NCBI RefSeq assembly: GCF_030440425.1
Contig: NZ_CP098023.1
Coordinates: forward strand, 3,930,001-3,994,000
Length of the DNA stretch: 64,000 nucleotides
Source: Microbulbifer sp. MI-G
GTDB lineage: Bacteria > Pseudomonadota > Gammaproteobacteria > Pseudomonadales > Cellvibrionaceae
Direction of reading: 5' to 3'
The notes beneath the pieces are model-generated. The model ran no database searches, was not told where the DNA came from, and worked only from the letters and a program-made list of their open reading frames with translations. The position numbers were made by a program, and so were the translations under genes. Of this stretch, positions 31,922 through 43,784 are shown piece by piece. Numbering within the stretch: the first letter of the stretch is position 1; each line of letters opens with the position of its first letter.

Positions 31922-32335
31922 TCACGCCTCTTCAACACGGTAGCGGTGTACTATCTCCACCCCGGCATTGCGCAGCATAATAGAGGCGGAACAGTATTTT
32001 TCCGCGGAGAGCCTCACCGCCCGCGCCACATGACTTTCTTTCAGCCCGCAACCACGCACCACAAATTCCATATCTATCCGTTCAAACGGCGAGGGGCCTG
32101 TATCCGGTCGTGCCCCATCCAGTTCACAATGGCAGGAAATAATATTCTGGCGCGCTTTCTGCAGAATAGAAACAACATCATAGGCGGCACAACCGCCGAC
32201 ACCCAGCAAAATCATTTCCATGGGGCGAACGCCGTTATTGGAGCGCCCACCTTCCATCACCACTGCATTCCCACTGCCGGCTTCACCGACAAACATGACA
32301 TCCCTGACCCAGGTTACCTTGCCCCGCATTCGCAT
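31922..32335 (-). CDS. OsmC-family protein (YhfA type)
   Basis: Member of the OsmC/Ohr fold. The start at 32335 gives about 137 residues and MRMRGKVTWVRDVMFVGEAG, aligning with the start of E. coli YhfA; the open frame reaches 32443 without similarity. The two conserved cysteines lie in LLGVGGCAAYDVVSILQKAR and LSAEKYCSASIML, and PMEMILLG is typical. In E. coli yhfA is divergent from crp, and here too it is divergent from crp across about 300 bases. The true substrate is unknown; peroxidase activity is possible from the paired cysteines. Confidence 0.87.
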   Translation of the reverse strand: MRMRGKVTWVRDVMFVGEAGSGNAVVMEGGRSNNGVRPMEMILLGVGGCAAYDVVSILQKARQNIISCHCELDGARPDTGPSPFERIDMEFVVRGCGLKESHVARAVRLSAEKYCSASIMLRNAGVEIVHRYRVEEA

Positions 32336-32508
32336 CCCCCCACGAAATTCCAAGTCGCAAAGCTTAGCATATTGCGCAAGATTATCCCGGTGTCCGCCTA
32401 TTTCCGGTATAGTGTCTGCACGCCTCCGCGCGAAATGCCCCACAGCACCATTTCAGCAGATGCCAGTGACACCTGAGCCATACTGAAGTCCAATCCCGCC
32501 AGTACCAG

Positions 32509-32524
32509 AGTGTCACAGGTCACA
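32509..32524. promoter_or_regulatory. Possible CRP-binding site upstream of crp
   Basis: The 16-base sequence AGTGTCACAGGTCACA fits the CRP core: GTG, eight bases, CAC, with one perfect TCACA half-site and one weaker half. It lies 117 bases before the crp GTG start, in the gap shared with the divergent OsmC gene, so it could mediate CRP autoregulation. The weaker half-site limits confidence. Confidence 0.35.
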
Positions 32525-32640
32525 ATGCGGAACTTTGCCACCATCAACCTCTGTTGGGGACGCTTTTTTCGCGCGATAATTCAACAGTGCTCCGCTGCTC
32601 AAGCCTGGATAGAGCACGAGACAAAAATGAGGAATACATC

Positions 32641-33276
32641 GTGACGGTTGCTATCGAAGAACCCATAACCATCGGCAATATTGAAGACTTTCTGGCCCAT
32701 TGCCACCGGCGTCGCTACCCGGCCAAGAGCACAATTATCTATGCCGGCGACCGCTGTGAATCCCTGTATTTTATTATACGCGGCTCGGTAACCGTGCTAA
32801 TTGAGGACGACGAGGGCCGAGAGATGATCGTCGCCTACTTGAATGATGGGGACTTTTTCGGTGAGATGGGGCTCTTTGATCAGGATACCCGCAGTGCCTG
32901 GGTACGCACTAAAACCGAGTGCGAGGTGGCGGAAATCTCCTACACCAAATTCCAGGAGCTGACCCGCCAGCACCCCGAGTTCCTGTTTGCCCTGGCCACA
33001 CAAATGGCGGGTCGCCTGCGCAATACCACGCGCAAGGTCGGTGATCTGGCATTCCTGGATGTCACCGGACGCGTGGCGCGCACCCTGCTGGATTTGTGCA
33101 ATGAGCCCGATGCAATGACACACCCCGAGGGGATGCAGATTAAAATTACCCGCCAGGAAATCGGTCGTATCGTCGGCTGTTCACGGGAAATGGTGGGGCG
33201 GGTGCTGAAGACTTTGGAAGAACAGGGTCTGGTCTCCGTTAAAGGCAAAACCATGGTGGTCTACGGCACCCGCTGA
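32641..33276 (+). CDS. crp: cAMP receptor protein (CRP/Vfr-type transcription regulator)
   Basis: Global cAMP-dependent regulator. The GTG start at 32641 is preceded by GAGG eight bases upstream and gives 211 residues, like Vfr and CRP; the frame extends back to 32554 without similarity. The cAMP-binding core reads [20 protein letters not shown], with the conserved Glu and Arg-Ser pair. The DNA-binding helix is [20 protein letters not shown], with the recognition residues R, E and R of CRP. It is followed by a perfect hairpin shared with trpC. Confidence 0.96.
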
Positions 33277-33293
33277 GCCCAAGCGATGACACA

Positions 33294-33333
33294 GAACAAA
33301 AACAGGCGATCCTATGATCGCCTGTTTTTGTTC
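33294..33333. terminator. Bidirectional terminator between crp and trpC
   Basis: A perfect 18-bp inverted repeat (33294-33311 and 33316-33333) with a 4-base CTAT loop lies between two convergent genes. The core is AGGCGATC/GATCGCCT, followed by TGTTTTTGTT on the plus strand and the same on the minus strand, so it can stop both transcripts. Confidence 0.9.
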
Positions 33334-33355
33334 AGCCGCATAAAAAGATTACAGC

Positions 33356-34150
33356 TCAGTTAAACATCTCCATCAATTTGCGTCCGGGTTCCCGCTCGCG
33401 CATAAACGCCTCACCCACCAGGAAAGTATCGACGCTGTGCCCACGCATGGCCGCGACATCATCGGTGGTATGAATGCCGCTTTCGGTCACTACAATGCGG
33501 TCAGAAGGCACCAGGTCGAGCAGTTTAAATGTATTTTCCAGGTGTACCTCGAAGGTGTGCAGATCGCGGTTGTTGATACCAATCAAGCGGTTCTGCAGAA
33601 CCAGCGCGCGCTCCAACTCACGGCGGTTATGCACTTCCACCAACACATCCAGACCGAGCTCCCGTGCCAAACCGTTGAGATCCTGCATTTGCTGATCCTC
33701 CAGACAGGCGGCAATCAGCAGGATACAGTCGGCCCCGATAGCCCGCGCTTCGTAAACCTGGTAGGGGTCCACGGTAAAGTCCTTGCGCAATACTGGCAGA
33801 CGCACCGCATTGCGCGCCTGTTGCAAATAGCTGTCGGCTCCCTGGAAGAAATCGACATCGGTCAGTACCGACAGACAAGCCGCACCACCCTTTTCATAGC
33901 TGGTGGCAATTTCCGCAGGCAAAAAATCCTCGCGGATCACCCCTTTGCTGGGAGAGGCTTTTTTGATTTCCGCAATCACTGCGGCTTCACCTTCGGCAAT
34001 CTTGCGTTCCAGTGCAGCCACAAAACCCCGCACAGGGGCCTGGTCTCTTGCGCGCAAGCGCATCTCTTCCAGGGTACACCGGGACTTGCGCTCTCGGATT
34101 TCCTGCCATTTGCGCGCAATAATGGCGTTGAGAATCGTGGGGGTGCTCAC
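33356..34150 (-). CDS. trpC: Indole-3-glycerol phosphate synthase
   Basis: Fourth step of tryptophan synthesis. The 264-residue (beta/alpha)8 enzyme carries [16 protein letters not shown], the catalytic lysine in [24 protein letters not shown] and VTESGIHT. The protein is monofunctional; no TrpF domain is fused. It overlaps trpD by four bases and is the last gene of the trpE-channel-trpG-trpD-trpC operon. Confidence 0.97.
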
Positions 34151-35196
34151 GATCGCACCTCCTCTGGACGGAAGGCACTACTGAAAGCGACCAGGTCATG
34201 GATTTTCTCAGCGGCGAGACCACTGTCGATCGCATCCTGAGCCATGGCGACACCCTGCCCAGCGGTGGTCGCTACACCACTCACATAAATGGCCAGGCCG
34301 GCATTCAGGGCAATAATATCCGCAGCTTTTTGCCCATTCACGGTCGAGCGCTTGCCGAGGGCATCGCGAATTAACACCAGGGAATCCTCGGGACCGGATA
34401 CACTGAGGCCACTCAGATCACGGCGCTGTAAGCCGAAGTCCTCCGGGCGCAGCAGAAATTCTGCAACAACCCCGCCTTTCAACTCCACGGCAAAAGTGTC
34501 CGCAGCGAGACTGGCTTCATCCAGGCCGTCATCACTGTGCAGTACCAGTACATGCTCGGAACCGAGGTGCTTAAGCACCTCGGCCAGTAAGCGGCAATAG
34601 CGCTTCTCATAGACTCCAATCACCTTGCGTTTGACACCCGCGGGGTTGGTCATGGGGCCGAGTAGATTGAAAATGGTGCGCAACCCCAGCGCCTTGCGTG
34701 CCGGCCCCACATGGCGTACCGCACTGTGAAAGCTGGGGGCAAACATAAAGCCAATACCGATAGTTTCCACACAGCGGGCCATTTGCTCCGGACTCAGCTC
34801 AAGAAAAACACCTGCGCGCTCGAGCAGGTCGGCGGAACCACTGCTGGAGGAAACCGAGCGATTGCCATGCTTGGCCACCCTGGCACCCGCCGCCGCCGCA
34901 ACAAAGCTACTGGCAGTGGAAACATTGAAAAGGTTGGCGCCATCGCCACCGGTGCCGACAATATCCACGGTGTTATCCAGATTCAGCTCCACCCTGGTGG
35001 CCAGCGCGCGCATGGTTTCCACGGCACCTACGATTTCATCGACGGTCTCACCGCGGATACGCATTGCGACCAGCAGCGCGCCAATCTGGGCTTCCTCCGC
35101 CTCACCACACATAATCTGGCCCATGGTCTCGCGCATTTCCACACGGGTGAGATGCTCCCCATCCACCAGTTTGGCGATGGCTTGTTGAATATTCAT
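34147..35196 (-). CDS. trpD: Anthranilate phosphoribosyltransferase
   Basis: Transfers the phosphoribosyl group from PRPP to anthranilate. The start at 35196 (GGGGAGCAGC upstream) gives [20 protein letters not shown] and 349 residues; the frame extends 21 codons further without similarity. The PRPP-binding [34 protein letters not shown] and [20 protein letters not shown] are clear. It lies 80 bases after trpG. Confidence 0.97.
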
Positions 35197-35276
35197 GCTG
35201 CTCCCCTTGGCCCTGCTCTGTGGTTTATTGTGCAGGACAGGCAGCGGCCTGTCCTGCAATCGTTTGTCCCAGAAAA

Positions 35277-35855
35277 TCAGGACTCGAGAAAATTCCGCAC
35301 CATGTCGTGGCCGTGCACGGTGAGAATGGACTCGGGGTGAAACTGCACCCCCTCAACCGCCAGTTCACGGTGGCGCAACCCCATGATTTCATCGATCTCA
35401 CCGTCTTCGGTTTCAGTCCAGGCGGTAATCTCCAGGCATTCCGGCAGACTCTGCTTCTCCACCACCAGGGAATGGTAGCGGGTCGCCTCGAAAGGATTGG
35501 ACAGACCGTGAAATACCCCCAAGTTATTGTGCACGATAGGGGAGGTTTTACCATGCATTACCCGGCGCGCACGCACCACCCTGCCGCCAAAGATCTGACC
35601 GATACTCTGGTGGCCGAGGCAAATCCCCAGTATCGGAATCCTGCCGGAAAAGCGGCGAATCACATCAAGGGAAATACCCGCCTCATTGGGCGTGCAGGGC
35701 CCCGGGGAGATCACAATTTTCTCCGGGGACATTGCTTCAATCTCCTCAAGGGCAAACTCGTCATTGCGCTTGACCTCAACCTGCGCGCCCAGTTCCTGCA
35801 GATACTGCACCACATTCCAAGTAAAGGAATCGTAGTTGTCTATCATCAGAATCAT
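35277..35855 (-). CDS. trpG: Anthranilate synthase glutamine amidotransferase component
   Basis: Supplies ammonia from glutamine to TrpE. The 192-residue protein begins [20 protein letters not shown]. The class I amidotransferase nucleophile lies in [15 protein letters not shown], preceded by the [11 protein letters not shown] motif, and the histidine/glutamate pair in [10 protein letters not shown] completes the triad. Its ATG overlaps the TAA of the upstream channel gene (TAATG), so it depends on translation of that gene. It may also serve folate synthesis as PabA; this cannot be told from sequence. Confidence 0.96.
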
Positions 35856-36715
35856 TACTCGGCCCCCATTACCTTTGCTGAATAATCACTTGCCTCCATG
35901 CGCTTTTGCAGGCGCACCAGGGACATCTGGGTTGCGCGCAGCTCCCGCAGTATCTCTGCCTGGCTCGGCGGCAGGCGCAACTCGTCCATGCGGCGCAGCT
36001 TGGCCTCCTCCAGATTATTGAGCACAACCCCAATAAACAGATTAATCATTACAAAGGCGCCCATCACTACGAAGCTGACAAAATAGACCCAGGCCCAGGG
36101 CATCGCCTCCATAGCGATATACATAATGTCGGTCCAGTCCTCGAAGGTAACAATGCGAAACAGGCTCAGCAGGGCAATTGGCAGACTGCGCCAGTGTACG
36201 GGATCAATTTCATGGAAGAGAAAATAACCGGCCACGCCGTAGATATAAAAAATAATCCCCATCAATAGCGCAATATGCAGCATGCTCGGCAGGCTGCGCA
36301 GCAGGGTATCCACGAGAACGCGCAATTCCGGAAAAGCGGAAACCAGGCGCAAAACCCGCAGAACGCGCACCAGTCGTGCCAGGGTTGCCAGTGGCCCCGC
36401 CGCGGGAATCAGGCTCAAGACGATAATGGTGAAATCAAAACAATTCCAGCCGCTGGTAAAATAGCGCCACGGGCGCGATCCATAAGCGGCGATCTTGACC
36501 GCCGCCTCCAGAATAAACACCCCCAGCACCAGCTGGTTGATGCCACCGAGCAACAGGCCAAAACGCTCCACCATCCAACTGGAAGTCTCCAGCCCAACCG
36601 CAATCCCATTGAGTAAAATTACGCCAATAATCATCTGATTAAACAGCGGTGCTGCAACAATACGCTGGCAGCGTGCGGCAAAGGAGAACTTTTGGGGAAT
36701 ACTAACTTCGCTCAT
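35855..36715 (-). CDS. Single-domain voltage-gated cation channel (BacNav/Cav-like) inside the trp operon
   Basis: Six-helix voltage-gated channel subunit of the ion_trans family, expected to form a homotetramer. Of 286 residues, S4 carries R114, R117, R120 and R123 spaced by three. The pore loop reads [14 protein letters not shown] (filter T190-D196) and S6 has [16 protein letters not shown]-terminal helix (247-273) may form the usual coiled-coil bundle. The filter resembles bacterial sodium channels (TLESW) but has Asp at the positions corresponding to 178 and 181 of NavAb, as in the engineered calcium-selective CavAb, so calcium selectivity is possible. It overlaps trpE by 14 bases and trpG by one, so it is co-translated with tryptophan enzymes. 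Confidence 0.9.
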
Positions 36716-38213
36716 CTTGCTCGGTCTTTACTGCATCACAACGACTGGCCAGGGCCATACCTGCAGCGCGGAACAGCGCACGGGCCTTATTCATGGTTTC
36801 ATCCCATTCAGATTGGGGGTCGGAGTCCGCCACCAGACCGGCGCCGGCCTGGATAAACAGCCGGCCATTTTTGATCACGGCAGTGCGGATCGCAATGGCG
36901 GTGTCCATATTGCCATTCCAGGCCACATAACCCACGGCGCCACCATAGATGCCGCGTTTTTCCGGCTCCAATTCATCAATGATTTCCATCGCGCGGATTT
37001 TTGGCGCCCCAGACAGGGTGCCAGCAGGCAGGGCAGCACGCAAGGCATCCATACCGCTCAGGCCAGCTCTGAGATGGCCGGTCACATTAGAGGTGATATG
37101 CATGACATGGGAATAGCGTTCCACCACCATCTGCTCAGTCACCCGCACACTGCCGGTTTCCGCCACACGCCCTACGTCGTTGCGCCCCAGATCGATCAGC
37201 ATCAGGTGTTCAGCCCGCTCCTTGGGGTCGGCCAGCAACTCCTTTTCCAGAGCCTGATCCTCTGACTCCGAATCACCGCGACGGCGGGTGCCCGCCAGGG
37301 GGCGCACCGTTATTTCCCCCTCCTCCAGACGTACCAGGATTTCGGGACTGGACCCCACCACCTGGTGGTCCCCCAGATCGAGAAAATACATATAGGGGGA
37401 AGGATTGAGACTGCGCAGGGCGCGGTAGAGATTCAATGGCGGCGCATCGAAAGGTACGGACAGCCGTTGCGACGGCACCACCTGCATGACATCACCGGCC
37501 AGGACATATTCCTTAACCCGCGCCACCGCGTTCTTGAAATTCCCTTCACCAAAGTGGGAGTGGAAGGCGCCCTCGTCGATCCCCATGCCGTCGAGGTCCA
37601 TAGACACCAGATTCGGCAGCGGCTGTGCAAGCCTGCTGACCAGCTGATCCAGACGCTGTTGCGCCCGCTCGAAAGCAGCCGACTGCTCCGGATCGGCATG
37701 GACGATAAAGATCACCGCACCGGCCAGGTTGTCGAACACCACCAGCTCATCACTGACCATCAGCAAAATATCGGGATTGTCCAGAGTATCCGGTGGCGTG
37801 CTGAGGGCCAGGCGCGGTTCAATAAAGCGCACGCAATCGTAGCCGAAATAGCCTACCAGCCCACCGTGGAAGCGCGGCAGGTTGGGCAATTCCGGCACCC
37901 GGTAACGTTTCTGAAAACGCTCCACAAACGTCAGCGGATCCGCCGAGGTTTCACTCTCCACCACTTCCCCATCCCGTTCCACGACCACCATATTGCCGCT
38001 TACCCGCAACAGGGTCCGCGCCGGCAACCCGATAATGGAATAGCGGCCCCATTTTTCGCCCCCCTGCACAGATTCGAACAGGTAACTGTAGCGCCCCACC
38101 GCGAGCTTCAGGTACGTGGATAACGGCGTTTCGATATCCGCCAGTACACGGCGCACCAGCGGTATCCGGTTATAGCCCGCAGACACGAGCCGGGCATATT
38201 CACTTGGGGTCAT
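36702..38213 (-). CDS. trpE: Anthranilate synthase component I
   Basis: Chorismate to anthranilate, first committed tryptophan step. The 503-residue protein holds the feedback-site motif [15 protein letters not shown] near the N-terminus. The chorismate-binding half carries [50 protein letters not shown] and the late [18 protein letters not shown]. Its last 14 bases overlap the channel start. A leader peptide with Trp codons lies 110 bases upstream. Confidence 0.97.
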
Positions 38214-38323
38214 AGAGACTCCAGACTGTCTTTGTATTGCTTGGCTAGGCGCGCCCGATTAATGGCAGCGCTTAAGGGGAGGGCGGCCGAATTGGCAGTG
38301 ACTACCGATTGAGCCTCAATGGG

Positions 38324-38371
38324 TCAGTGGCGCCATCGCCAGTGGATAGTCAGGGGGGCAACACGATTCAC
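38324..38371 (-). CDS. trpL: Candidate trp leader peptide with two Trp codons
   Basis: A 15-codon ORF with a GTG start and an upstream GAGGGAATCTCC encodes MNRVAPLTIHWRWRH, with Trp at positions 11 and 13. It ends 110 bases before trpE. Two Trp codons in such a short ORF upstream of trpE are the hallmark of attenuation or ribosome-stalling control. The Trp codons fall in a small TGGCG/CGCCA hairpin. Too short for ordinary gene finding; supported by position and composition only. Confidence 0.72.
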   Translation of the reverse strand: MNRVAPLTIHWRWRH

Positions 38372-38398
38372 GGAGATTCCCTCTTTACAAGGTACACC

Positions 38399-38427
38399 AG
38401 TTTACAAAGCCCCCGAGCGGTGGGCAA
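38399..38427 (-). promoter_or_regulatory. Possible sigma-70 promoter for the trp operon
   Basis: On the minus strand TTGCCC (38427-38422), a 17-base spacer and TAAACT (38404-38399) form a plausible promoter. It would start transcription about 20 bases before trpL. The elements are only partial matches, and the -35 box falls inside the loop of the hairpin after rpe. Confidence 0.35.
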
Positions 38428-38443
38428 GAACCCGCTCGCGGGG
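38411..38443 (-). terminator. Hairpin after rpe
   Basis: Seven bases beyond the rpe stop, CCCCGAGCGG (38411-38420) pairs with CCGCTCG-C-GGGG (38432-38443), with one bulged C. On the minus strand it is followed by only a short CTTTG, so termination may be partial and trp genes could also be read from the amgK-murU-rpe transcript. Confidence 0.5.
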
Positions 38444-38449
38444 CATTGA

Positions 38450-39112
38450 TCAGCCCAGGCTACTGCGCAGAGCGCCAATGGCCTCAGCGTAGTCCGCTGT
38501 GCCAAAGATGGCGGACCCCGCCACAAAGGTGTCGGCGCCAGCGGCGGCGATGTCCGCAATGTTGTCCCGATTGACGCCCCCGTCAATTTCCAGTCGAATA
38601 TCAAAGCCGGAGGCATCGATCATCCTGCGTGCCTCACGGAGTTTGGCCAGCGTTGACGGTATAAACTTCTGGCCCCCAAAGCCCGGATTGACTGACATAA
38701 GCAGGATCATATCCAGCTTGTCCATGACATATTTGGCCGCATCCAGGCTGCTGGCCGGATTGAGTGCCAGGCCAGCTTTGCAGCCGAGGCTGCGGATCAA
38801 CTGCAGGGAGCGGTCCGGGTGACGGGAGGCCTCCGGATGGAAGGTGATATAGTTGGCGCCGGCATCGGCAAACATACGAATCATGTCATCGACCGGCTCC
38901 ACCATCAGGTGCACATCAATCGGAGCTTCGATGCCGTGTTCACGCAGAGCCTGGCACACCATGGGACCAATCGTGAGATTCGGCACATAGCGATTATCCA
39001 TAACGTCGAAGTGCACCCAATCAGCTCCGGCTGACAACACCGTTTCCACCTCTTCCCCCAGCCGCGCGAAGTCGGCGGAGAGGATGGATGGGGCAATCTT
39101 GTATTCTGGCAT
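38450..39112 (-). CDS. rpe: Ribulose-phosphate 3-epimerase
   Basis: Interconverts ribulose-5-phosphate and xylulose-5-phosphate in the pentose phosphate pathway. I place the start at the ATG at 39112 (AAGGG seven bases upstream), giving [20 protein letters not shown] and 220 residues; ATGs at 39118 and 39130 are alternatives. Metal and catalytic motifs are present: [43 protein letters not shown] and [12 protein letters not shown]. In many gammaproteobacteria gph follows rpe before trpE; here gph is absent. Confidence 0.96.
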
Positions 39113-39130
39113 TTCCATACCCTTAGTCAC

Positions 39131-39838
39131 TCAGTATTCCGCGGCCAACCGGCGGTGCAGTTGCTCCAGGCGCTCCGGGGTACCCACATCACACCAATCC
39201 CCTGTGTACAACTCTGCCTGCAACCTGTCTTCATTCAAGGTAAACACCTCCCCCAGACCAAAGCAATCTCGCAATTTCGCATAGCCGGTGAGCATCTCCG
39301 GTCGCAACCAGCTGATGCCGGCAAAAGTGTAGCGGGGCCTGGAGCCACCCGACAACAGCCCCCGCTCAATACCGAAATCACCCTCCGGATTGTGCGGGGG
39401 GTTTGGCACCATCAGCAACCGTCCCGGACAGTGTTTCGGTAGCGGTCGGGCCACCCACTGGGACAGGTCAAAGTCACACCAGACATCGCCATTGACCACC
39501 AGAAAGGGGGCATCCCCCAAAAGGGGCATGGCCTTGAGGATACCGCCGGCGGTCCCCAGAGGTTGCTCTTCATGCTCCACCGAATAGCAAATATCCAGTC
39601 CCCAGCGCTCTCCTCCGCCCAGGTAATCCCGGATTTTTTGCCCGAGATAGCCGAGGTTGATCACCACACGCCGGACACCGATACCCCGCAGACGCTCCAG
39701 CGCGTGTTCTATCAGTGGCTTTCCGGCAACAGACAGCAGAGGTTTTGGTATTTGGTCCGTGAGCGGGCGCATGCGGCGTCCGAAGCCTGCGGCCAGCACC
39801 ATGGCGATGGCCGGGGGAGTCTCTCTGCGCTGGGTCAT
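39131..39838 (-). CDS. murU: N-acetylmuramate alpha-1-phosphate uridylyltransferase
   Basis: Nucleotidyltransferase that makes UDP-MurNAc from MurNAc-1-phosphate in the wall-recycling route that bypasses de novo synthesis (and hence fosfomycin). The 235-residue protein opens with AMVLAAGFGRRMRPLTDQIP, the classic NTP-transferase loop, and has the catalytic lysine in PKPLLSVAGKPLIEH and the metal aspartate in VVNGDVWCDFDL. It follows amgK and precedes rpe on the same strand. AnmK at 1930-3039 is the earlier recycling enzyme. Confidence 0.93.
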   Translation of the reverse strand: MTQRRETPPAIAMVLAAGFGRRMRPLTDQIPKPLLSVAGKPLIEHALERLRGIGVRRVVINLGYLGQKIRDYLGGGERWGLDICYSVEHEEQPLGTAGGILKAMPLLGDAPFLVVNGDVWCDFDLSQWVARPLPKHCPGRLLMVPNPPHNPEGDFGIERGLLSGGSRPRYTFAGISWLRPEMLTGYAKLRDCFGLGEVFTLNEDRLQAELYTGDWCDVGTPERLEQLHRRLAAEY

Positions 39839-39890
39839 CTCATTAATCTATACAATGTGCTTGCAACGTATTTTTTGTAGCCTGCCTATG

Positions 39891-40964
39891 CTAGCTTCCG
39901 GCCATACGGTAATCGCTGTACCAGGGTTGTCGCTCGATCAGTGGCAGCAGCTCACTGCCAAACCATTCGCCAAAGGGTTTCAATTCAGGATAGCGTTCGG
40001 AGATTTCCAACACATAGCGAATCACCAGCGGTAGATTCTGCAAATATCCCCGCTTCCCATCCCGTAGTAACAGGCGCGGAAACAGGCCGAGTACCTTAAT
40101 ATGGCGCTGCAGGCCCATCCAATCGAACCAGCGTATGAACCTTTCCTGAGCCACAGGTTCCAAAATCCCCGCCGATTCGGCAGTGGCGGCATAGGCCAGG
40201 GCCCAGCGCACGACCCGTTCGCGCGGCCAGCGTATATAACAATCGCGCAACAGGGAGGCAAGATCGTAAGTGACCGGTCCCCAGACAGCATCCTGAAAAT
40301 CCATAATACCGGGGCGCTGCCCCCCTCGGACCATCAGGTTACGACTGTGGTAGTCCCTGTGCACCAGGGTCTGAGGCTGCTCGGCAGCACTTTCCAATAA
40401 AAGCCGGAAGGTCATCTCCAGTAACTGTACCTCCGGTTCACTGAGGGAATAGCCAAGCATTTTTCCCGCCAGCCATTCCGGCATAATACGCATCTCCGCC
40501 AGTAACAGTTCCCGGCTGTAGGCTGGCAACAGCGCTTCTTCGCGGGGTATCTGCTGCAAACACAGCAGCTCGCTCAGAACTTCTGCGTAAAGGCCCTCAA
40601 CGCTGTCTTTATTGAGCGCGCAGAATAACTGGATATCCCCGAGATCTTCCAGCAGGAGAAAGCCCTTTGCGGTATCCGCCGCAATCACCATCGGGGTATG
40701 GATGCCATTGCGCCGCAGGTAATCCGCCAGAGCCACAAAGCGGGCGGGGTTCGTGCGCTGAGGTGGGGAGTCGACGGCCACCAGGCGAGGTTCAGTACCG
40801 GTGCGGAAGTAACGCCGGAAGCCCGCATCTCCGGCGAGATCAAGGAGCGCAACAGCCCTGTCCATTTCCAGGGCTCGACCCACCCAGCGAGCCAACTGCT
40901 CGCGCCGCAGGTCATCACGCACAACATACCCCTCTTCCATCCCACCGGCCAACCGCTTGTTCAT
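39891..40964 (-). CDS. amgK: N-acetylmuramate/N-acetylglucosamine kinase
   Basis: Anomeric sugar kinase that phosphorylates MurNAc at C1 in peptidoglycan recycling. Phosphotransferase-type catalytic motifs are seen: LVHRDYHSRNLMV with the catalytic aspartate, and IMDFQDAVWGPVTYDL with the metal-binding aspartate. The frame opens at 41084, but homology begins near 40964-40940 (VVRDDLRREQLARWVG), so I choose the ATG at 40964 (357 residues); 40940 is equally possible. It is divergent from lptD, with murU 52 bases downstream, as in Pseudomonas. Confidence 0.9.
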   Translation of the reverse strand: MNKRLAGGMEEGYVVRDDLRREQLARWVGRALEMDRAVALLDLAGDAGFRRYFRTGTEPRLVAVDSPPQRTNPARFVALADYLRRNGIHTPMVIAADTAKGFLLLEDLGDIQLFCALNKDSVEGLYAEVLSELLCLQQIPREEALLPAYSRELLLAEMRIMPEWLAGKMLGYSLSEPEVQLLEMTFRLLLESAAEQPQTLVHRDYHSRNLMVRGGQRPGIMDFQDAVWGPVTYDLASLLRDCYIRWPRERVVRWALAYAATAESAGILEPVAQERFIRWFDWMGLQRHIKVLGLFPRLLLRDGKRGYLQNLPLVIRYVLEISERYPELKPFGEWFGSELLPLIERQPWYSDYRMAGS

Positions 40965-41183
40965 ACCCCGGAAGTTTCCCATTTCCCAGGCTGCATTGTA
41001 ACCCTGTAGCCATTCACGTCCAGCGGCGGCGATACACCCTTCCCCTGTACCCGCCCTGTGGCTATCAACCACTTCTACATTCAAGTAGAATCACGCGAAG
41101 GTTGTTGCGCGCCCCGGCTGGATAGCTGTCGCACGCTTATCCCAATAAAAGACACACTCAAGATAGCCGGAACATATCGTTTG

Positions 41184-43784
41184 ATGCTCGAAGTCTCCCG
41201 GTGGCACCGCCTCGCGCTGGCGATCGCTAAAAACTCGCAAGCCCGCACCCTCACCATCGGCCTGATCGCTGCGCAATCCCTGTGTGCCCACGCTGAGCAG
41301 GCGCCCACGGCAGATCCGGACTACAACCCCTATCTGTATCTGGACTGGCTGCCCCGTTCAGAACTATCCCCAGAGATGCGAGCCAGACTACCGGCGATTT
41401 GCTCGGGCGCCTTTGTCGCCCCTCCCAGGCGCTATCCGGGAGCGGACCTACCACCAGAGACGGCTCCGCTGCGCGCCACTGCCGTGCAGTCCATGTGGCT
41501 GGAAGACGGCAGTGCAGAACTGAGCGGCAATGTGCATATCACCCAGGGATACCGCCAGCTGTTTGCGGACCGGGTGGAGATCAATCGCGCCAATAATACC
41601 GCCTACCTGAGCGGCGCTATCGAACTGCGCGAGCCCGATCTACTGGTGCGTGGCGCCACGGCGGAAGTGCACACAGAAAGTAACGCCGCTTCAATTGATG
41701 ACGCCACCTACGTGGTACACGACGCGTTTATTCACGGCACCGCCGCCTTCGCTGCCCGCCAGGCCAGTGGCGAACTGAGCCTGACAGACGGCACCTACAC
41801 CCGCTGTGAACCGGGCAGGGAGTTCTGGCGTCTGAGCGGCGGTGAAATCAATATCGATAGAGTCGAGAGCCAGGGGGTAGCGCGGGATGTACGCTTGGAA
41901 ATTCTGGGCGTACCGGTTCTCTACCTCCCCTATTTTCGCTTCCCGGTAGACGATACCCGCATGTCGGGGTTTCTGTTTCCCTCAGTGAGTAACAGCGATG
42001 AAAACGGCTGGGACGCTGCCATCCCCTACTATTGGAATATTGCCCCTCAGATGGACGCGACTATTACGCCGCGCTATATCCAATACCGTGGAACCGGCCT
42101 GGAAGTCGAATTCCGCCACCTGAGCCCCGTGTTCAACACCATTGTGCGCGCAGCGGATTTGCCCAATGACAAGGGGGGCAACGACGACCTCTCCCGCGAA
42201 CTGATCGACAGGGGTTTTCCGCAAGCGCTGGTACTGCCCTACAAGGGAGAGGATCGCTGGCTGTTTAGCCTCGAACAGGCAGGGGGCTACAGCGGCAGTG
42301 TCTGGCGCACCAATATCGATTATACCAAGGTCAGTGACCCCGATTACTTCCGCGATCTAAGCCCCGCCAACCTGGCAATCAGTGCCGAAACCAAGGTCAA
42401 CCAGACGGTACAGGGCAGCCTCAACTTTGAGCACTGGCGAGTCGCACTTCGGGCGCAGGACTACCAGGTACTGGAAAATGACGTCTTTGATGCTTTTGCC
42501 CAATTGCCGCGCCTGGATGTGGACGGCAATTACCGCTGGGGCGACTGGCAATTATCCCTGCAAAACGAAGCCACAATATGGGACCATCAGGATACCCAGA
42601 CAATCACATTTATACGGGATATAGACGACCCGGACAGTGTAACCAGTCGAACCCAAGATTTTATTAACGCGGATCGGCTGCGCCTGGATTACGAACTCCA
42701 ATGGGACAAGGAGTGGATCTGGGGCTATTTCAAGCCCGGCATCGCTGCACGCTACCTGGGGTACCGAGTCAGCGACCTGTTCCTGTCCGAGGATGCCAAT
42801 AATACCCCGAGTGCCTCCGCCGGCCAGTTTACCCTGGATACGGGCCTCTATTTTGAGCGGGATGGATATCTTTTCAACCGCGACTATATCCAGACCCTTG
42901 AGCCCCGCTTATTCGCCCTGATCAGCAGCAGTGCCAACCAGAGTGACTTTTTCGATATCAGCGGAGATGACATTAACAACATTGGCCCGATCGACCCTTT
43001 GAGTAATAACCTGCTTTACGATACCTCGCTGTTCACCTCCAGTTATGACCAACTGTTCCGGGACAGCCGTTTTACCGGAAATGACCGTATAGACGATGCC
43101 GACCGAATTGCCCTGGGCCTGACCACACGCTTTATCGACCCCGTCAGTGGGCGTGAATTATTCTCCGCCAGCGTCGGCCAGGCCTTCTATTCGAGCGACT
43201 CACAAATCGGCTTGAGGGAACTCATTGAGAATACACCCCGCTCCGAGCTGGCCGCACAACTGCAGAGTCGGCCCCTGCAATCCCTGCGTATTGACAGCGA
43301 ACTTGTCTACGATGACACCGAGCACAACATCAACCGCGGCAACTTCAACCTGCGCTACTTTGACAATGATGCCAGGATTTTTAACCTCGGGTACAACTAC
43401 GTTCGAAATGACGCAATCAGGGTAATCGAGGACGGTAACGAGGTGGACTCCTCCACCCGGCAGCTGAACAGCTCCGCCGTCCTGCCCATCAGCGCCCACA
43501 CCGCTATACTGGCTGGCGCGGCCTATGATCTGACTTTGGATCGGGAACTGGAATACCTGGCGGGTATCGAATATGACGACTGTTGCTATCGTGCGCGGCT
43601 GGTGTGGCGTCGCACCCTGGACAATAATCTGGCAGGGATAGTGGCGGCAGAGGATCTGGAGTACGACGAGGGTGTCTTTCTCGAGATACAACTGAAAGGT
43701 CTGGCCGGCTTCGGCGCAACCGTTACCCAAATACTGACCCAGGGGATCGCCAACTTTGACCAGAGAGAAGAGCTGAAACCGTGA
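41184..43784 (+). CDS. lptD: LPS-assembly outer-membrane protein LptD
   Basis: Beta-barrel that inserts lipopolysaccharide into the outer leaflet. The ATG at 41184 gives a precursor of 866 residues with a signal peptide ending near LCAHAEQA; the frame runs back to 41058 but the extra 42 residues lack signal character. The jellyroll (OstA/LptA-like) domain begins near 120 (WLEDGSAELSGNVHITQGY). The family marker VPVLYLPYFRFPVDDTRMSG is present. N-terminal cysteines lie in AICSGAF and YTRCEPG, and the C-terminal CC pair in DDCCYRARLVW fits the inter-domain disulfides. It overlaps surA by four bases. Confidence 0.95.
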   Translation: MLEVSRWHRLALAIAKNSQARTLTIGLIAAQSLCAHAEQAPTADPDYNPYLYLDWLPRSELSPEMRARLPAICSGAFVAPPRRYPGADLPPETAPLRATAVQSMWLEDGSAELSGNVHITQGYRQLFADRVEINRANNTAYLSGAIELREPDLLVRGATAEVHTESNAASIDDATYVVHDAFIHGTAAFAARQASGELSLTDGTYTRCEPGREFWRLSGGEINIDRVESQGVARDVRLEILGVPVLYLPYFRFPVDDTRMSGFLFPSVSNSDENGWDAAIPYYWNIAPQMDATITPRYIQYRGTGLEVEFRHLSPVFNTIVRAADLPNDKGGNDDLSRELIDRGFPQALVLPYKGEDRWLFSLEQAGGYSGSVWRTNIDYTKVSDPDYFRDLSPANLAISAETKVNQTVQGSLNFEHWRVALRAQDYQVLENDVFDAFAQLPRLDVDGNYRWGDWQLSLQNEATIWDHQDTQTITFIRDIDDPDSVTSRTQDFINADRLRLDYELQWDKEWIWGYFKPGIAARYLGYRVSDLFLSEDANNTPSASAGQFTLDTGLYFERDGYLFNRDYIQTLEPRLFALISSSANQSDFFDISGDDINNIGPIDPLSNNLLYDTSLFTSSYDQLFRDSRFTGNDRIDDADRIALGLTTRFIDPVSGRELFSASVGQAFYSSDSQIGLRELIENTPRSELAAQLQSRPLQSLRIDSELVYDDTEHNINRGNFNLRYFDNDARIFNLGYNYVRNDAIRVIEDGNEVDSSTRQLNSSAVLPISAHTAILAGAAYDLTLDRELEYLAGIEYDDCCYRARLVWRRTLDNNLAGIVAAEDLEYDEGVFLEIQLKGLAGFGATVTQILTQGIANFDQREELKP

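Follow-up and report, generated by a model that had tools for sequence, protein, structure and literature searches.

The trp operon of Microbulbifer sp. MI-G carries a gene for a voltage-gated cation channel between trpE and trpG. The gene, its fold class and its filter, the order of the operon, the conservation and losses of the gene and the other positions of its relatives are documented below. We favour, with moderate confidence, the explanation that this is a channel of the AnclNav type, probably preferring Na+, which has long been lodged in the trp operon and is mainly a co-expressed passenger there. Calcium selectivity and a coupling to tryptophan both seemed less likely than this.

To our knowledge, the roles of bacterial Nav channels in their hosts are largely open. 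The channel type found here is already known. Its position in the trp operon was not found in the open-licence literature, in which no paper on an ion channel in a trp operon was retrieved. As pairs of species with and without the gene occur within one genus, and the operon is defined with predictable tryptophan induction, both the role and the regulation of the channel are testable. In addition, its filter TFEDWTD, common to many gammaproteobacteria, offers a fresh case for telling sodium-passing AnclNav filters from calcium-passing ones.

The operon and the channel protein

The window, that is, the whole 64,000-nt stretch of DNA analysed, has rpe preceding the operon, followed by trpE, the channel gene, trpG, trpD and trpC. 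The first-pass annotation had described the channel gene as sharing 14 nt with trpE and 1 nt with trpG, and the coordinates confirmed this.

Table. Features of the trp operon and of the channel gene in the window.
Feature	Position	Strand	Basis
Probable trp leader peptide VNRVAPLTIHWRWRH, two Trp codons	38324..38371	-	sequence
trpE, anthranilate synthase component I	36702..38213	-	TIGR00564, 575 bits, cut-off 518
trpE end / channel start overlap, 14 nt	36702..36715	-	sequence
Voltage-gated cation channel gene, 286 aa, BacNav/AnclNav-like	35855..36715	-	ORF; Pfam Ion_trans 1.3e-50; model similar to NavAb, NavMs, NaChBac
S4 voltage-sensor helix, residues 107-127, four evenly spaced arginines (R114, R117, R120, R123)	36335..36397	-	model helix; alignment
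Selectivity filter TFEDWTD, residues 190-196	36128..36148	-	sequence
C-terminal helix, residues 252-282	35870..35962	-	helix in model
Channel stop / trpG start overlap, 1 nt, TAATG	35855..35855	-	sequence
trpG, glutaminase subunit	35277..35855	-	TIGR00566, 289 bits, cut-off 121
trpD, taken as the longest ORF; may start later	34147..35259	-	TIGR01245
trpC	33356..34150	-	NCBIfam TrpC NF001373, 410 bits, cut-off 317

A search of the host genome (4.48 Mb) with trpG gave no close second copy, the other matches being 30% and 25% identical. Therefore, trpG may also serve folate synthesis. Immediately downstream of trpG, either ahead of trpD or inside its beginning, is a perfect hairpin of 12 pairs (35231-35258) that has no T-run on the trp strand. 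Upstream of rpe, the minus strand (39131-41084) holds a nucleotidyltransferase gene (Pfam NTP_transferase) and a 397-aa ORF. These two may correspond to a murU-amgK pair.

The earlier identification of a six-helix channel was borne out by the Ion_trans match and by the structure matches. The protein has a single six-TM Ion_trans domain, falls in the BacNav size class of about 270-290 aa, carries R-x-x-R repeats in S4 and has a pore filter of the TxExW form, and its model has the fold of NavAb, NavMs and NaChBac. The AlphaFold monomer model (pLDDT 82.5, pTM 0.60) matched NavAb, CavAb, NavMs and NaChBac entries, and the C-terminal helix in it is probably a coiled coil. Across 47 aligned rows, made up of the sequence from the window and those of 46 relatives, there was no variation in the four S4 arginines or in T190, E192, D193 and W194 of the filter; T195 and D196 were present in at least 90%.

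When the sequences of solved structures were searched, the top summed scores belonged to four-repeat eukaryotic channels, with T-type calcium channels first (7.7e-87 over six stretches, the best stretch scoring 76 bits). The best one-domain PDB chain was NaChBac 6vwx (E=8.1e-52, 179 bits in one stretch), with 40% identity over 223 columns. Further one-domain matches were 4bgn, a voltage-gated sodium channel (5.9e-51), NavMs 5hvx (7.2e-43) and CavAb 5klb (1.5e-41). The sole other Ion_trans match in the host genome (L036) has TVGYGD in its pore, a potassium-channel signature.

We also estimated dN/dS by the Nei-Gojobori method among 11 Microbulbifer sequences, using the pairs with dS below 2. 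The median was 0.11 for the channel (41 of 55 pairs), compared with 0.10 for trpE (40/55), 0.06 for trpG (39/55) and 0.07 for rpe (38/55). The channel is under purifying selection similar to that on trpE.

Linkage to the trp operon

In the family sample from GTDB, 144 genomes were searched, among which 48 belonged to the genus of the window, its own genome included. The channel was found at 78% identity or more in 44 of the 48 Microbulbifer genomes. A comparison of coordinates by hand placed all 44 genes next to trpE, sharing its contig and strand. None of these matches has an internal stop, and no second match at E<1e-30 was found in any of the 44 genomes. Among 26 named Microbulbifer loci (L001-L025 and L033), the junction between trpE and the channel varied between an overlap of 14 nt and a gap of 72 nt. 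The channel overlapped trpG in 25 of them, by 4 nt in 23 and by 1 nt in L002 and L004; the exception, L015, has a gap of 12 nt. Where the channel is lacking, an identical 4-nt overlap joins trpE to trpG in L111 and in four of 16 trpE regions from other genera (L114, L115, L117 and L120). From these junctions, it looks as if the channel replaced trpE as the coupling partner of trpG.

The channel is gone from the trp interval in at least three Microbulbifer species. In G100, a clean 4-nt overlap of trpE and trpG is left. G098 (locus L110) keeps a 36-codon ORF remnant between the two genes, comprising the start of the channel and part of its C-terminal end; in this assembly, its trpE is spread over two frames, which may be real or a sequencing error. 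In G107, a 33-codon ORF stands where the channel would start, with little likeness further on, and G097, an 80% complete genome, has a gap of 18 nt. The trpE tree placed G100 and G107 within the channel-bearing Microbulbifer, suggesting that they lost the channel secondarily; the position of G097 was not resolved in this tree and G098 was left out.

The remaining 96 family genomes gave no close relative of the channel; 58 of them have a homologue 35-43% identical to it. We surveyed 20 loci with this homologue (19 from other genera and one from G097), and none had trpE on the strand of the channel. In 14 of these 20 genomes, those in which trpE was located, it lay elsewhere. The 16 trpE regions from other genera gave no channel match at 1e-8; in 11 of them trpG came after trpE with a spacing of -4 to 491 nt, and in five it was not found in the stretch.

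Outside the family, a search reaching close relatives only showed trpE directly before the channel in 34 of 34 loci on named contigs, nine of which were not Microbulbifer by title; some of these loci are on the same contigs as in the order and class samples. Of the 390 genomes in the order sample, 21 gave a match with an identity of roughly 50% or higher; 10 of these were Microbulbifer and 11 were others. Eight of the 11 carry the channel beside trpE, and no trp gene match was found within about 5 kb of the channel in G509, G462 and G393. In the class sample (369 genomes), the clade was present in 18 others: four genes lay between trpE and trpG, one was divergent from trpG, and 13 had no trpE or trpG match in the flanking DNA, which in G770 extends only 1.5 kb on each side.

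The upstream neighbours were scanned in eight class-sample loci. The same-strand gene directly upstream, named by its domain, was purL in L173, PEP carboxylase in L177 and an M23 peptidase in L170 and L172. The upstream ORF of L178 has the same length as that of L177. No such pair with a housekeeping gene was seen among the proteins scanned in L168, L169, L174 and L175. In L168 (G585), two different BacNav-type genes, 61% and 39% identical to the channel of the window, were found about 3 kb apart. Mutual exclusion of the two homologue types is not general, because at least five of the 18 class-sample clade genomes had two matches at 1e-60.

Three order-sample loci (L134-L136) have trpE, the channel and then an ORF of 1139, 1084 and 1075 aa, respectively, with PD40 and amidohydrolase matches. 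In L134 and L135, this ORF and the channel share 4 nt; in L136, it lies 48 nt behind the channel. In L135, trpG was located about 6 kb further on; it was not seen in the L134 and L136 stretches. A fusion of trpE and the channel in L075 and L134 was considered and rejected, because the long ORF is the channel frame remaining open across trpE, which is in another frame.

Adjacency to trpE in 44 of the 48 Microbulbifer genomes, and also in several other gammaproteobacterial families, makes the arrangement look old. The other positions and the losses indicate that the linkage, although old, is not obligatory. The channel and trpE trees were broadly congruent. This is a judgement by eye, since the trpE tree was a quick one in which the places of other families were partly supported. 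The channel tree was also quick, with long branches and the loci of this analysis alone, and we did not trust it for the relations among the three channel types. The broad congruence, together with the nesting of Microbulbifer trpE in its own family, suggests an old and vertically inherited linkage. That nesting leaves a joint transfer of trpE and the channel into Microbulbifer unsupported.

The first-pass annotation had held that a functional link would be weakened if the overlap were absent in close relatives. The outcome was mixed: 44 of the 48 Microbulbifer genomes and members of other families retain the position, but the junction varies, three species have lost the gene and genes of the clade are also found apart from trpE.

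In 26 of the 27 channel-bearing Microbulbifer loci scanned, the window included and L004 being the exception, trpE is preceded by a short ORF whose peptide closes with WRW and one to a few further residues. A stricter rule for this leader retained 25 of the 27. Both scans also found it in L110-L112, the loci with the channel lost; under the stricter rule it was further seen in Parendozoicomonas (L028) and in four of the 16 channel-less regions from other genera. The leader is therefore part of the trp operon and not of the channel. Among nine aligned leaders, the best conserved stretch was the DNA surrounding this ORF, TGGCGATGG. The leader is a short ORF with clustered Trp codons, as in a Trp attenuator. 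A terminator scan revealed no U-tract terminator-like site on the trp strand within it. No Rfam trp leader match was obtained up to E=1 in 32000-42000; the three Rfam matches in this interval were all under their gathering scores. Trp attenuation is a likely candidate mechanism at this site. A search of the open-licence literature found no paper on trp attenuation in Pseudomonas.

Because a leader with Trp codons (...WRWR) precedes trpE, the channel probably shares Trp-sensitive transcription. Within the channel gene, the trp strand has two weak terminator-like sites, which is within the range of shuffled sequences. No sigma-70-like promoter was found in 35200-38700, including the part ahead of trpE. 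As the scan was also blank before trpE, it says little about a single transcript or internal promoters.

The selectivity filter

Among the 26 named Microbulbifer loci, 25 have TFEDWTD and one, L013 (M. thermotolerans), has TLEDWTD. The latter was found in every non-Microbulbifer locus of the clade with a readable filter; L034 and L080 end before the filter and were unread. At least one relative in the protein-match alignment (P0100) has TLEDWSK. Of the distant homologues L081-L109 (n=29), 26 have TFEDWTD and three have TLESW types; of L157-L167 (n=11), seven have TFEDWTD, two TLEDWTD and two TLESW types. The idea that TFEDWTD is a rare filter was rejected on these counts. The string 'FEDWTD' occurred in no paper in the open-licence full text.

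The filter had earlier been read as TFEDWTD and aligned so that Asp occupies two positions as in CavAb and Glu is kept; this reading holds. It is a TLESW-like filter with extra acidic residues (TLED/SWTD type), as in AnclNavs. At filter position 4, where a CavMr-type Ca2+ channel has Gly, it has Asp193. Instead of the Asp at positions 3, 4 and 7 of a CavAb-type Ca2+ channel, it has E at 3 and D at 4 and 7.

According to PMC7041947, NavPp (TLEDWTD) has a PCa/PNa of 0.308, passing some Ca2+ and being blocked by Ca2+. Its TLEDWSD mutant remains Ca2+-blocked, and the same filter in NavAb is Ca2+-selective. The same paper gives Gly4 as a key determinant of Ca2+ selectivity in CavMr, and reports that no currents were obtained from the AnclNavs of T. 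turnerae and H. elongata, which have similar filters. PMC10349818 places Phe at the Leu176 position in some BacNavs and AnclNavs, and states that L176F causes no block in NavAb. A review associates Asp at this filter position with either Ca2+ selectivity or a Na+ conductance blocked by Ca2+ (PMC10120453). Since TLEDWSD makes NavAb Ca2+-selective, the logic of the filter depends on the backbone. By analogy, the best forecast is that the channel is probably Na+-preferring and Ca2+-blocked.

Interpretation and comparison with known systems

In the explanation we favour, the channel would be a depolarisation-activated homotetramer of the ancestor-like (AnclNav) type within the bacterial Nav superfamily. 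A subunit would consist of a voltage sensor (S1-S4), a pore (S5-P-S6) that carries TFEDWTD, and a helix at the C-terminus. Depolarisation would most likely let in Na+ and some Ca2+, and millimolar Ca2+ would block the channel, as in NavPp. The gene would be co-transcribed with trpE and trpGDC from a promoter before trpE, under the Trp leader peptide. It would be coupled in translation to trpG through the stop-start overlap, like trpE and trpG through their overlap in several channel-less relatives. The trp position would then be an ancient lodging that supplies expression, and the job of the channel, whether in Na+ entry, in motility or in balancing ions or pH, would not be specific to tryptophan.

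The first-pass annotation had proposed a natural calcium-permeable channel by comparison with CavAb. Spelled out, the three acidic rings E192, D193 and D196 would give Ca2+ selectivity and the entry of Ca2+ would act as a signal. We consider this unlikely. The D at positions 4 and 7 is as in CavAb, NavAb with TLEDWSD is Ca2+-selective (PMC7041947), and the review offers Ca2+ selectivity as one of two outcomes of Asp here (PMC10120453). However, the calcium-permeable reading is weak in view of NavPp, in which TLEDWTD gives a PCa/PNa of 0.31 with Ca2+ block and the TLEDWSD mutant is likewise Na+-preferring or Ca2+-blocked, and CavMr relies on a Gly at position 4 (PMC7041947) that is Asp in the window channel. 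TFEDWTD is also common, being carried by 26/29 and 7/11 non-clade homologues. The analogy with CavAb was set aside, as NavPp-type filters behave otherwise.

A functional coupling appears rather unlikely. It would mean that Trp starvation lifts channel synthesis via the leader, so that permeability tracks Trp supply, or that ion entry tunes Trp synthesis or Na+-driven Trp uptake. The WRWR leader and the 4-nt or 1-nt overlap with trpG in 25 of 26 loci (L001-L025 and L033) fit such a coupling, and the long retention of an old linkage in several families could reflect it. Against this, L110-L112 lost the channel and kept the leader and the trp operon, genes of the same clade follow other housekeeping genes or have neither trpE nor trpG in their vicinity, and the homologue in other genera of the family is a different one that lies apart from trpE (in none of 20 loci, 19 of them from those genera, was trpE on its strand). 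That channel dose is set by tRNA-Trp charging, with leader-controlled trp transcription tying Na+/Ca2+ permeability to tryptophan supply through a link predating the split of several gammaproteobacterial families, is in our view quite improbable. A selfish or decaying insertion without function is scarcely credible: the channel was lost in at least three species, but its dN/dS of about 0.11 is near that of trpE, and it is kept by 44 of 48 genomes with no internal stop in the 44 matches. The co-expressed passenger corresponds to the fallback of the first-pass annotation, a fixed operon position without specific coupling, which fits best given the varying junction, the losses and the clade members away from trpE.

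CavAb was engineered to have TLDDWSD, and native NavAb is Na+-selective with TLESWSM. NaChBac, the best one-domain PDB match of our channel by sequence (6vwx), has a filter of the TLESW type and comes from an alkaliphilic Bacillus relative. NavPp, the AnclNav of Plesiocystis pacifica, is a one-domain voltage-gated channel like that of the window (PMC7041947). Its filter TLEDWTD, as given there, is that of L013 and of the readable non-Microbulbifer loci of the clade. The two are likened by filter; the window channel differs in having F at filter position 2 and in sitting in the trp operon. CavMr, the AnclNav of Meiothermus ruber, belongs to the same architecture class (PMC7041947), and filter position 7 is acidic in both; its filter TLEGWVD has Gly4, compared with Asp4 in the window channel. 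By filter type, the channel is best read as a probable AnclNav-type voltage-gated cation channel. The operon around it shares the order trpE, trpG, trpD, trpC and a Trp-rich leader ORF with trp operons that have a Trp-codon leader peptide, and it differs from an ordinary operon of this kind in having a channel gene between trpE and trpG.
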